This document shows, one piece after another, positions 3,743 to 60,837 of a DNA stretch of 64,000 nucleotides. Position 1 is the stretch's first letter, and each line of letters begins with the position of its first letter. Source of the DNA: Acidobacteriota bacterium (GTDB taxonomy: Bacteria; Acidobacteriota; Blastocatellia; UBA7656); contig JBFMDH010000005.1 in NCBI GenBank assembly GCA_040754075.1, positions 186,001 to 250,000 of the forward strand, given 5' to 3'. The translations under genes were made by a program, and so were the position numbers. The notes beneath the pieces were generated by a model, which had not been told where the DNA came from, did no database searches, and saw only the letters and a list, made by a program, of their open reading frames with translations.

Positions 3743-4549
3743 TTACTTTCGCAAATCATTCACCGCTGCCATTAACTTTTCGACCCGCCGCGCATCAATT
3801 GTGTTATGCCAGCGTCCGTCTACTTTGAAATAGGAACCGATGATAAAGCCATCCGCCGCTTCGTAAAACAGGGCGAGATTTTCGGCATCAATGCCCGAAC
3901 CTAAAACCACCGGCAAGCGGCAATGCGACCTGGCTTCACGAACATCTTCAACTTTCGGCGCTTCGCCTGTAACGTTGCCGGTGATAATCACCGCATCGGC
4001 GCGCATAAATTCGACCGTCTCGCAGGTCGCGCCGAGTGTTATATCGGCGGTGATTGCATGCGACGAATGTTTCTTCTTCACATCCGCCCAGACCGCTACA
4101 CCTTCCGCGCCAATCATTTTCCGATAACGCAACAAACGCGCTGCCGAAGATTCAATCAAGCCTTCATCGGCAACGTGCGCGAAAGCGAAGCCTTCGGCGC
4201 GAATGAAATCCAAATTTGCCGCGTGCGCTACCGCCATCGCTTCGAGATTAGCGCCCGCGAGAATTTGAATGCCGACGGGCAAACGGCTTTCGTCTTTTAC
4301 TGCCGCGCCAATCACGGTCATTGCGGCGACGATTTCCGCGCCGACCGCGCCTCTCAGATAAGGCACATCGTGCATGTTTTCAATGCCGATGGCATCAACG
4401 CCACCGTCTCGATAAATCGCCGCTTCACGACGCGCCAGCCGGGCGAGTTCCGCCACACTCAATGAATTTGCAGGCGTACCGGGCAACGCCCCGACGTGAA
4501 TCATGGCGATGATGGGTTTTAGGTTTGAAAATAAATCGGTCGGCATCAC
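3743..4549 (-). CDS. BtpA/SgcQ family TIM-barrel protein
   Basis: 268 residues, near the family's normal length. Family hallmarks are the N-terminal IIAMIHVGALPGTP, the GVDAIGIENMHDVPY stretch, and the C-terminal GSGIDAENL and DGFIIGSYFKVDG, which resemble phosphate-binding loops of TIM barrels. BtpA is known in cyanobacteria for its effect on photosystem I stability; the widespread non-photosynthetic members have no agreed reaction. It starts at ATG 4549 or 4546 with only a weak ribosome site. It is flanked on both sides by toxin-antitoxin genes that have nothing evident to do with it. Confidence 0.88.
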   Translation of the reverse strand: MMPTDLFSNLKPIIAMIHVGALPGTPANSLSVAELARLARREAAIYRDGGVDAIGIENMHDVPYLRGAVGAEIVAAMTVIGAAVKDESRLPVGIQILAGANLEAMAVAHAANLDFIRAEGFAFAHVADEGLIESSAARLLRYRKMIGAEGVAVWADVKKKHSSHAITADITLGATCETVEFMRADAVIITGNVTGEAPKVEDVREARSHCRLPVVLGSGIDAENLALFYEAADGFIIGSYFKVDGRWHNTIDARRVEKLMAAVNDLRK

Positions 4550-31406: not shown

Positions 31407-31949
31407 ATGTTCAAGAAAAAGTCACTTCTACTAATTTTTTTGTTGCCGTTACTGGTCATTGCCTGTTCCAGTTCGACGCCGCAAACCGGTAATGAGAATC
31501 AAAGTAATCAACCGCCGGAAGAGGCGCGCGCCGACGGTTCAAAAGTCGTAAAGGCTGAAGGCACCGTCGCGGTCATTCCGCCGACACCACCACCGGTAGC
31601 GCCGACCCCGCAACCAGCGGTCGCGCCCGCCAACGCGCCGAAATTACTATTGCCGGTTACCAGTGCCAACTACGGCAAGGTGAAAACCGATAAAACCCTG
31701 GTGCGCACCTTCGATATTAAAAACACCGGCAAAAGTCCGCTCAATATCGAATCGGTATCGCCAAGCTGAGGATGCACGGCAGTGGACTTTCCCAAAGTCC
31801 TACGACCTGGTCAGGTCGGCAAAATCAAAATTAAAGTGGAAACCGGCAAAGCGCCCGGCCCGCATACCAAAAGCGTAACCATCATATCTGATGATCCGGC
31901 GCAAAAGACCGCCATGTTTCAATTCACTTTCGATGTCGTAGACAAATAA
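31407..31949 (+). CDS. DUF1573 lipoprotein with in-frame TGA: candidate selenoprotein
   Basis: 180 codons if TGA at 31767-31769 (codon 121) is read. The N-terminus is a lipoprotein signal with lipobox VIAC, then a Pro-rich linker (PPTPPPVAPTPQPAVAP). From about residue 90 it matches DUF1573: NYGKVKTDKTLVRTFDIKNT, IESVSPS, then TGA, then GCTAVDFPKVLRPGQVGKI and a strand-rich end to DVVDK. In DUF1573 proteins the motif is PSCGCT, as in the second copy at 60430-60837, so TGA stands exactly at the first Cys. Frame and family similarity continue unbroken after it. Reading TGA as selenocysteine gives a Sec-Gly-Cys motif on the outer side of the membrane. The alternative is a nonsense mutation (one base from TGC or TGT) or sequence error. 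If translation stops there, the product lacks most of its domain. Confidence 0.75.
31784..31818 (+). promoter_or_regulatory. Two adjacent hairpins downstream of the TGA (possible SECIS)
   Basis: Hairpin 1 is GGACTTT (31784-31790), loop CCC, AAAGTCC (31794-31800), starting 15 bases after the TGA. Hairpin 2 is CGACCT (31803-31808), loop GGTC, AGGTCG (31813-31818). A GGUC apical loop is what SelB recognises in the Escherichia coli fdhF SECIS. However, the hairpin 2 loop lies 40 bases after the TGA, slightly further than usual, and hairpin 1 lacks a G in its loop. The element is a candidate only. Confidence 0.4.
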
Positions 31950-32019: not shown

Positions 32020-33225
32020 ATGATGATTGATTACCAAGAATTGCTTTCTGAAGTGGGGCGCACCTTACGCCCCAACGTCATACGCAAACTCACGGCGCTC
32101 GCCAACAGCGGCAAGGTAATTTCGTTTGCCGCCGGCGCACCCAGCGTCGATACCTTTCCGATTGCAGAGATTGCCGAAATTGCCATTCAAACCGTGCGCG
32201 ACAAAGGCAAAGCCGCTTTGCAATACGGCGCAACGCGCGGACTTGGCAGTTTGCTTGAAGGCGTCATCGCGATTATGGCGGAGCGCGGCGTCCGCTGTTC
32301 GGCAGATGAAGTGGTGATGACTACCGGCTCGCAGCAAGGTTTGGATTTGATTGCGCGATTGCTGTTTAGTCCCGGCGACATCGCGCTCGTGGAACTGCCG
32401 AGTTATATCGGCGGCATCATCGCTTTGCATAACGGACAAGCGCGAATGGTCGGCGTCAAACAGGATGACGACGGCATGGTGATTGATGATTTGCGCGAAA
32501 AGCTCGAACAGGCAAAGGCTCAGGGGCGGCGCGTCAAATGTATCTACACGATTCCCAATTTTCAAAATCCGTCGGGGGTGACGCTTTCTTTTGAGAGACG
32601 CAAAGCGTTACTCGCGCTTGCCGATGAATATGATTTTCTGATTATCGAAGACGACCCGTACTATGAATTGTACTTTGCCGAAGACGCGACGGAACTCAAA
32701 CCACTTGTAGCGATGAATCGCGAACGGGTGATTTATTTGAGCAGTTTTTCCAAAACGCTGGCGCCGGGACTGCGCACCGCCTGGGTGGTTGCGCCCAAAG
32801 CTTTTTCTGCGAAAATCGAAACCCTTAAAGAAGGCGCGGATTTGTCTTCAAGCGTTTTTGATCAAGCCATCGTTGCCGAAGCCATCCGTTCAGGACTGGT
32901 GGCAAAACGCTTGCCGGAAATTCGCCGGTTTTACCAGGTGCGTCGCGATGCCATGCTTGAAACTCTTGAACGCCACGCGCCTGCGGGCGCGCGCTGGACA
33001 AAACCCGTAGGCGGATTTTTCCTGTGGATGGAACTTGCGGGCAAGGTTGATACAACAGAAATTTTGCCGCAGGTCATCGAGCGCGGCATCGCTTATGTTC
33101 CCGGTCAGCCATTTTTCGTTGACGATGGCGGCACCAATACTTTGCGACTGGCTTATTCCAAAGAATCGCCGGAACGAATTGCTGAAGGCATCGAAATGCT
33201 TTGCAATATTTTGAAGCAAAGTTAA
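32020..33225 (+). CDS. PLP-dependent aminotransferase, class I/II (LysN/MocR-core type)
   Basis: 401 residues. The fold-type I signatures are FAAGAPSVDTFP, YGATRGLGSLLEGV, TTGSQQGLDLIARLL, YTIPNFQNPSGVTLS, IIEDDPYYELYF and the PLP lysine in SSFSKTLAPGLRTAW. RLAYSKESPERI near the end supplies the carboxylate-binding arginine. The closest well-known members are 2-aminoadipate aminotransferases and the catalytic domains of MocR regulators; no regulator HTH is present here. The exact substrate is uncertain. It overlaps the convergent Smr gene by 4 bp. Confidence 0.92.
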   Translation: MMIDYQELLSEVGRTLRPNVIRKLTALANSGKVISFAAGAPSVDTFPIAEIAEIAIQTVRDKGKAALQYGATRGLGSLLEGVIAIMAERGVRCSADEVVMTTGSQQGLDLIARLLFSPGDIALVELPSYIGGIIALHNGQARMVGVKQDDDGMVIDDLREKLEQAKAQGRRVKCIYTIPNFQNPSGVTLSFERRKALLALADEYDFLIIEDDPYYELYFAEDATELKPLVAMNRERVIYLSSFSKTLAPGLRTAWVVAPKAFSAKIETLKEGADLSSSVFDQAIVAEAIRSGLVAKRLPEIRRFYQVRRDAMLETLERHAPAGARWTKPVGGFFLWMELAGKVDTTEILPQVIERGIAYVPGQPFFVDDGGTNTLRLAYSKESPERIAEGIEMLCNILKQS

Positions 33226-60429: not shown

Positions 60430-60837
60430 ATGAAATCAAAAACCCCGCTCATGTTAATTGCGCTTTGTTTGATTACGGTGTTTTCCGTAGTCGCTAAAGA
60501 AAATCCCGCAACATCAGGCAAAGCGCCGAAAGCCAGCATCACTTCACTTGAACACAACTTTGGCACGGTTAAAACCGGTACACCGCTTAGCTTCACCTTC
60601 AAAGTGAAAAACACCGGCGACGCCGATTTGGAAATCAAGAATGTCGCGCCGTCCTGCGGTTGCACCTCAAGCCAGTTCGACAAACTGATTCAAACGGGCA
60701 AAGAAGGCGGCATCACTTTGGAAGTCAAAAACACCGAAGGCTACAAAGGTGAAGTGGTTAAAAACGCCACCGTCACCACCAACGACCCCAACCAACCCAC
60801 CTTCACTCTGGTGTTGCGCGCAACCTTCACAGAATAA
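60430..60837 (+). CDS. Exported DUF1573 protein
   Basis: 135 residues from ATG 60430 with TATGGAGAG upstream. Signal peptide ends near SVVAKEN. The single DUF1573 domain has HNFGTVKTGTPLSFTFKVKN, then VAPSCGCTSSQF and ATVTTNDPNQPTFTLVLRA, an Ig-like fold. The Cys-Gly-Cys pair is intact and serves as the direct comparison for the TGA-containing paralogue at 31407-31949. Function of the family is unknown. It is divergent from the caspase-TPR gene. Confidence 0.9.
   Translation: MKSKTPLMLIALCLITVFSVVAKENPATSGKAPKASITSLEHNFGTVKTGTPLSFTFKVKNTGDADLEIKNVAPSCGCTSSQFDKLIQTGKEGGITLEVKNTEGYKGEVVKNATVTTNDPNQPTFTLVLRATFTE

Follow-up and report, generated by a model that had tools for sequence, protein, structure and literature searches.

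DUF1573 (pfam07610) is tabulated as a selenoprotein with the motif UGC in PMC9312934 and in Table 1 of PMC13188914, and in the accessible parts of these two papers the entry is referred to Zhang and Gladyshev 2007 (Olavius algarvensis symbiont). The table of PMC13188914 also has an entry for a UGC-containing selenoprotein of the TlpA disulfide reductase family. NCBIfam holds a model, NF041425, which is named 'OS_HP2 family (seleno)protein' and has a curated cut-off of 100 bits; we infer that OS_HP2 and the DUF1573 entry of the reviews are the same thing. With regard to the RNA signal, the accessible sections of PMC13188914 describe a bacterial SECIS model with a small apical loop that carries G within its first two positions (in many cases GG or GU), a distance of 16–37 nt from the UGA and a stem of 4–16 bp, and state that some SECIS elements break this consensus.

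The gene studied here lies in a window from an Acidobacteriota genome, the window being the whole stretch of 64,000 nucleotides that was analysed. Its predicted product resembles the DUF1573/OS_HP2 selenoprotein in having the same Pfam domain, the UGC motif and Cys homologues with CGC, but differs from it in being a short, probable lipoprotein of an acidobacterium that scores 72.5 bits against NF041425, below the cut-off of 100 with the UGC motif present. That cut-off was passed in only three of 395 genomes of the phylum in a genome search. Since DUF1573 with UGC stands in the review tables, the kind is already known, and a preliminary description of this DNA, which did not count DUF1573 among the listed selenoprotein families, has to be corrected: as far as their accessible text goes both reviews list it, and NCBIfam has the OS_HP2 model. 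No description of the short Sec-DUF1573 lipoprotein type was found in the open-access literature searched.

The in-frame TGA of the DUF1573 gene and its recurrence in relatives

The features of the window that bear on the gene are as follows.

31407..31949, + strand: predicted Sec-containing DUF1573 lipoprotein gene, 180 residues, TAA stop (frame and Pfam match)
31767..31769, + strand: predicted Sec codon TGA, residue 121, within PS-U-GCT (same codon in 5/5 orthologues)
31651..31946, + strand: DUF1573 / ASH-like Ig domain, limits approximate (Pfam match and predicted fold)
32020..33225, + strand: class I/II aminotransferase gene that follows at 70 nt (conserved neighbour in 5/5 orthologous loci)
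60430..60837, + strand: Cys-type DUF1573 paralogue with PSCGCT, loop GGCA and 8/15 SECIS pairs (Pfam match and pair count)

The frame at 31407–31949 opens with ATG and runs for 120 codons to the TGA, which is followed by 59 sense codons and a TAA. This single in-frame TGA occupies the first Cys position in the DUF1573 motif PS[C/U]GCT, and the read-through protein matches Pfam DUF1573 (PF07610) with 73.2 bits against a cut-off of 26.1 over residues 85–168, a match that spans the TGA. The paralogue (71.1 bits against 26.1) reads PSCGCT where this gene reads PS-TGA-GCT. The preliminary description had reported the TGA at codon 121 between PS and GCT, the PSCGCT of the paralogue and the 59 further sense codons with DUF1573 similarity ahead of the TAA, all of which were borne out, and the presence of an in-frame TGA at the DUF1573 motif Cys is confirmed. 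A gene caller ending at the TGA would give a truncated DUF1573 protein here.

As judged by eye, the N-terminus of the product has a hydrophobic stretch and a lipobox-like VIAC (Cys20), a reading based on the lipobox consensus, and the N-termini of four orthologues look alike (LTAC, MIGC, LSGC and LSAC). The aminotransferase gene is a possible operon partner of the Sec-DUF1573 gene, and a PQQ/BamB-type propeller gene lies a few kilobases away in all five orthologous loci.

Within the family to which the genome of the window (G000) belongs, five genomes (G000, G001, G003, G004 and G006) were found with the short lipoprotein form, and each has the TGA. After the TGA the orthologues are 58–84% identical with dN/dS values of 0.10–0.25 (10/10 pairs), and over the 45 residues before it they are 38–73% identical with values of 0.22–0.38 (7/10 pairs, three being saturated); these values are rough, since dS exceeds 1 for most of the pairs. 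Searching 195 related genomes with the protein returned matches from 45 of them, and 28 rows were flagged as having one internal TGA. In every flagged row (27 loci and G189) the TGA takes the place of the first Cys in the motif [C/U]-G-C, with P at position -2 relative to it in 26 of the rows. Such recurrence at one codon points to more than a chance or error TGA, in line with the earlier remark that a chance stop would rarely hit exactly this codon. That a chance mutation, a pseudogene or a sequencing error made TGC into TGA in a broken or misread gene would take only one base, and the long frame that follows might be what is left of a recently broken gene, but with the same codon in all five orthologues and all 28 flagged rows, the low dN/dS downstream and the conserved RNA structure described below, we regard this as practically out of the question.

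The 12 loci from named Acidobacteriota contigs (three Blastocatellia, two Chloracidobacterium, six 'Acidobacteria' without class and one Terriglobia) all have TGA at the motif Cys, a figure that is biased to UGA forms, since the single peptide pattern used was drawn from them, and that is uninformative on other phyla. With the OS_HP2 model, 177 of the 395 genomes of the phylum had a match, and among the matches listed the one-TGA flag was found in 26, from many families; the motif pattern for distant families recovered 18/19 loci, L170 being missed.

Two of the five orthologues (L028 and L029) end in a true TGA stop, which rules out that UGA is simply reassigned: both meanings coexist. By the same token UGA terminates genes elsewhere, and it might do so at codon 121 as well, leaving a functional product of 120 residues, any readthrough being of the common leaky kind and free of Sec. 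A real stop at this position would, however, cut the Ig domain and remove the half of the protein that is the more conserved one; homologues have Cys at this position, and pairing of the two hairpins occurs in the UGA copies and not in the Cys copies examined. We consider a real stop very improbable.

The genome around the window (7.58 Mb, 68 contigs) contains all four components that the preliminary description had proposed to look for, namely tRNA-Sec (Rfam 65.5 bits against a cut-off of 47; anticodon UCA according to ARAGORN), selB (383.5 bits, cut-off 242), selA (565.9 bits, cut-off 268) and selD (353.2 bits, cut-off 125), the last being itself of the Sec type with one in-frame TGA. The recurrence of the TGA with purifying selection on both sides, also suggested there as a check, agrees with the dN/dS values of the five orthologues. 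That Sec genes occur in genomes with the UGA form carries little weight, since selA was found in 171 and tRNA-Sec in 165 of the 195 relatives. Of 23 genomes that carry DUF1573 in a UGA form, 22 have selA, the remaining one (G038) having tRNA-Sec and selD; tRNA-Sec was found in 20 and not in G046, G176 and G189, with strict filters and draft genomes. Taken together, the in-frame UGA at a conserved Cys, the full machinery, the UGA of the orthologues, the constraint on the protein after it and the constraint on the SECIS-like RNA downstream make it near certain, as judged from sequence, that UGA codon 121 is decoded as Sec, which supports the original proposal of a Sec-Gly-Cys protein. We have high confidence in the explanation as a whole, a gene for a secreted and probably lipid-anchored selenoprotein, and less in two of its steps that are considered below, the spacer hairpin and the redox pair.

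As to SelD (L019:1531 and the matches in relatives), 43 of the 54 relatives matched have one TGA and 10 genomes, all from a single family (f4), have none; the match of the 54th, G041, is incomplete and lacks a TGA.

The two hairpins downstream of the UGA

Two hairpins that adjoin each other lie directly 3' of the UGA.

31784..31800, + strand: hairpin 1, GGACUUU-CCC-AAAGUCC, proposed spacer hairpin
31803..31818, + strand: hairpin 2, CGACCU-GGUC-AGGUCG, proposed SelB-binding SECIS hairpin

To compare them across relatives, we used an alignment of UGA copies (A1), holding 25 of the 27 UGA loci (24 distinct; L063 and L064 were omitted as divergent, their loops not being GGT), and an alignment of Cys copies (A2), in which 13 of 14 Cys loci (L054 omitted) and the window paralogue make 14 copies; L073 was without the motif. 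The 15 pairs of the structure hold in 87.2% of cells in the UGA copies as opposed to 80.2% in shuffles, and the covariation is 0.185 compared to 0.059, neither being reached by any of 500 shuffles; further pair types number 11 versus 7.6 (reached by 2/500), whereas the four pairs changed on both sides versus 2.6 (reached by 60/500) are not striking, and since the sequences are related and the hairpins fall within conserved coding DNA, these shuffle counts are not probabilities. Slid versions of the structure hold in at most 53.9% of cells. Between 12 and 15 of the 15 pairs form in 23/25 UGA copies (L060 has 10 and L038 has 8), compared to 5–9 in the 14 Cys copies and 4–8 in five further Cys loci.

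Because the hairpin stretch is also protein-coding, 1000 synonymous-codon redraws were run. The UGA copies form on average 13.08 of 15 pairs where 9.35 (sd 0.29) are expected, a value reached in none of the redraws, while the Cys side, for which 14 Cys loci including L054 with its indel were taken, forms 6.71 pairs against 6.15 expected (reached in 49/1000). The coding sequence alone is thereby rejected as the cause of the hairpins. The Gly codon in the loop of hairpin 2 is GGT in 24/25 UGA copies, in 0/14 Cys copies and in 19/182 flanking Gly codons; it is also GGT in L124 and L208, which belong to the set of five further Cys loci and form only 8 and 4 pairs.

In the gene of the window the GGUC loop of hairpin 2 is at 31809–31812, 39 nt after the TGA, and the same distance applies to 23/25 UGA copies. 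The scan for hairpin 1 found it in 22/25 UGA copies, partly owing to a no-overlap rule, and its loop begins 19–21 nt after the UGA in 21 of these. Among UGA copies from distant families of the phylum, a hairpin pair with differing sequences is frequent at this place, though not universal, and its second loop is often GGG or GGC. Among Sec-type SelD genes of the class (27/31 SelD loci matched the motif pattern) the loop lies 33 nt after the UGA in 9/17, which is within the published 16–37 nt and indicates that a long distance between UGA and loop is not unique to DUF1573.

The E. coli fdhF SECIS has a GGUC apical loop about 18 nt from the UGA and no spacer hairpin; hairpin 2 thus shares the loop with fdhF and differs from it in distance and in the hairpin that precedes it. 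Compared to the model in the accessible text of PMC13188914, hairpin 2 is alike in its small apical loop with G followed by G or U, in its stem length and in its position after the UGA, and unlike in its distance of 39 nt (42 nt in a third family, see below), which is outside 16–37 nt, and in having another hairpin in between. Hairpin 1 of the gene is within 16–37 nt, but its loop, CCC, has no G. Hairpin 2 thus fits the loop and misses the range by 2 nt, whereas hairpin 1 fits the range and in 16/22 copies not the loop, and it is on this that the spacer proposal is founded: SelB carrying Sec-tRNA would bind hairpin 2 through its GGU[C/A] loop, and hairpin 1 would fold away the extra 17–19 nt, giving a working distance of about 20 nt between the UGA and the SelB site. 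We put the chance that hairpin 1 is the spacer and hairpin 2 the SelB site at about even. The roles could also be reversed, hairpin 1 being the SelB-binding SECIS and hairpin 2 a helper, as the position of the hairpin 1 loop inside the range of PMC13188914 and the stronger hairpin 1 in some distant families would suggest; we find this doubtful, as the hairpin 1 loop is not conserved and in those 16 of 22 copies has no G in the first two places (e.g. CCC, ACC, TCC and CCT), and the GGU[C/A] of hairpin 2 is chosen against the usual Gly codon, with GGUC in 6/6 of the third family. No description of a two-hairpin SECIS layout was found in the open-access literature searched.

A covariance model built from the two-hairpin element (R1) matched three places in the genome of the window: this gene, a long DUF1573 protein on contig C34 (378 residues; OS_HP2 107.1 bits for the whole protein and 82.3 for the domain alone in the genome search) and a protein with PSUC on contig C1.

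L123:3812-5098 (G000:C1), TGA at 4235: third Sec-type Ig-domain protein, PSUC, with the two-hairpin element

The PSUC protein has up to 429 residues and weak HYDIN-Ig/DUF1573 similarity, and in all six family genomes with an R1 match (G000 and G002–G006) it has TGA followed by Cys, the GGUC loop and a distance of 42 nt. It is not in Table 1 of PMC13188914, and no description of it was found in the open-access literature searched. Across the 195 relatives R1 matched 35 places in 21 genomes, of which 31 are UGA copies (29.8–85.4 bits) and four are Cys copies (29.9–44.9 bits), so that the score ranges overlap at the weak end.

The findings as a whole would allow for a distinct SECIS class in Acidobacteriota, consisting of a spacer hairpin and a SelB-binding hairpin (GGU[C/A] loop, 39–42 nt from the UGA) and serving paralogous envelope Ig-domain selenoproteins, including the PSUC one. 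SelB would then measure folded RNA rather than nucleotides, and scanners set to 16–37 nt would miss these genes; we see this broader proposal as evenly poised between right and wrong. For SECIS elements outside the published distance range, the two-hairpin element supplies a specific model that is open to experiment, and R1 finds such elements.

A Cys copy and a Sec copy neighbour each other on one contig (G041:C153; L062:4142-4201 (+) and L062:5334-5393 (+)), and the Cys copy, which scores 44.9 bits with R1, looks like a relic, perhaps of a recent Sec-to-Cys change. At L060 (-), on G019:C24, two tandem DUF1573 domains are found in one protein, the first with PGCGCT and the second with PSUGCT.

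Predicted fold and possible role

An AlphaFold2 model from a 13-row alignment had a mean pLDDT of 82.1 and a pTM of 0.60. It predicts an Ig-like domain, with pLDDT of at least 95 in 10-residue blocks over residues 81–180, preceded by a low-confidence Pro-rich linker, and places residues 121–122 between strands 112–119 and 123–127. The best PDB structure matches were a HYDIN domain (E 5.2e-7), the OCRL1 domain and an uncharacterised Porphyromonas gingivalis protein, 2qsv; PDB sequence searches gave nothing useful. The product would accordingly be modelled as an Ig-like (ASH/HYDIN-like) domain in which Sec121-Gly-Cys123 sits in a turn between two strands, and the lipobox and long linker may let the domain stand off the membrane. 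Members of the TlpA disulfide reductase family have a thioredoxin-type fold, in contrast to the Ig-like fold predicted here; the UGC motif is common to both.

In the cell envelope, Sec121-Gly-Cys123 may act as a redox pair formed by a selenol and a thiol. This redox role is argued only from the use of Sec and the UGC motif, the neighbouring genes not pointing to redox work, and for a Sec-DUF1573 lipoprotein we favour it slightly. CxC pairs also bind metals. The Sec-Gly-Cys pair might thus bind a metal or hold a structural bond instead of being catalytic, and the predicted fold, an Ig domain, would suit such a role. The accessible text of the open-access papers found to name DUF1573 gives no activity for it, and one of them, likewise as far as accessible, counts a DUF1573 gene of Bacteroides among a group of iron-responsive genes. 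Against this, Sec occurs in the active sites of oxidoreductases (PMC1794560), and most uncharacterised selenoproteins are expected to have redox functions (PMC13188914), both according to the accessible parts of these papers. A metal-binding or structural pair is somewhat unlikely, and we prefer the redox pair. What the residue does is open to experiment, since Sec and Cys forms of one envelope family occur together within the phylum and within a single genome as well.

tRNA-Sec-shaped genes with a Cys anticodon

In four of the five family genomes examined besides that of the window (G001 being outside the sample), a tRNA-Sec-shaped gene with the anticodon GCA (Cys) follows the Cys-type DUF1573 gene at about 7–110 nt.

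L124:3690-3790 (-) (G004): tRNA-Sec-shaped gene, anticodon GCA
L206:2465-2557 (G006): tRNA-Sec-shaped gene, anticodon GCA
L207:2282-2373 (G002): tRNA-Sec-shaped gene, anticodon GCA
L209:2286-2379 (G003): tRNA-Sec-shaped gene, anticodon GCA

In the fifth genome (G005, L208) the DNA downstream of the Cys-type gene runs into N, and the window paralogue and L072 are without such a tRNA gene. According to the accessible text of PMC7609411, allo-tRNA is assigned to several groups including Acidobacteria, and selC* tRNA-Cys to other phyla. The G004 copy scores 65.4 bits with the Rfam tRNA-Sec model, above the cut-off, and was not called by ARAGORN; the other copies come from blastn similarity. The Cys genes adjoining these tRNA genes form only 4–8 of the 15 SECIS pairs. 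The anticodon arm of the GCA tRNA genes is that of tRNA-Sec except for the anticodon, and the other arms differ, with paired changes as judged by eye.
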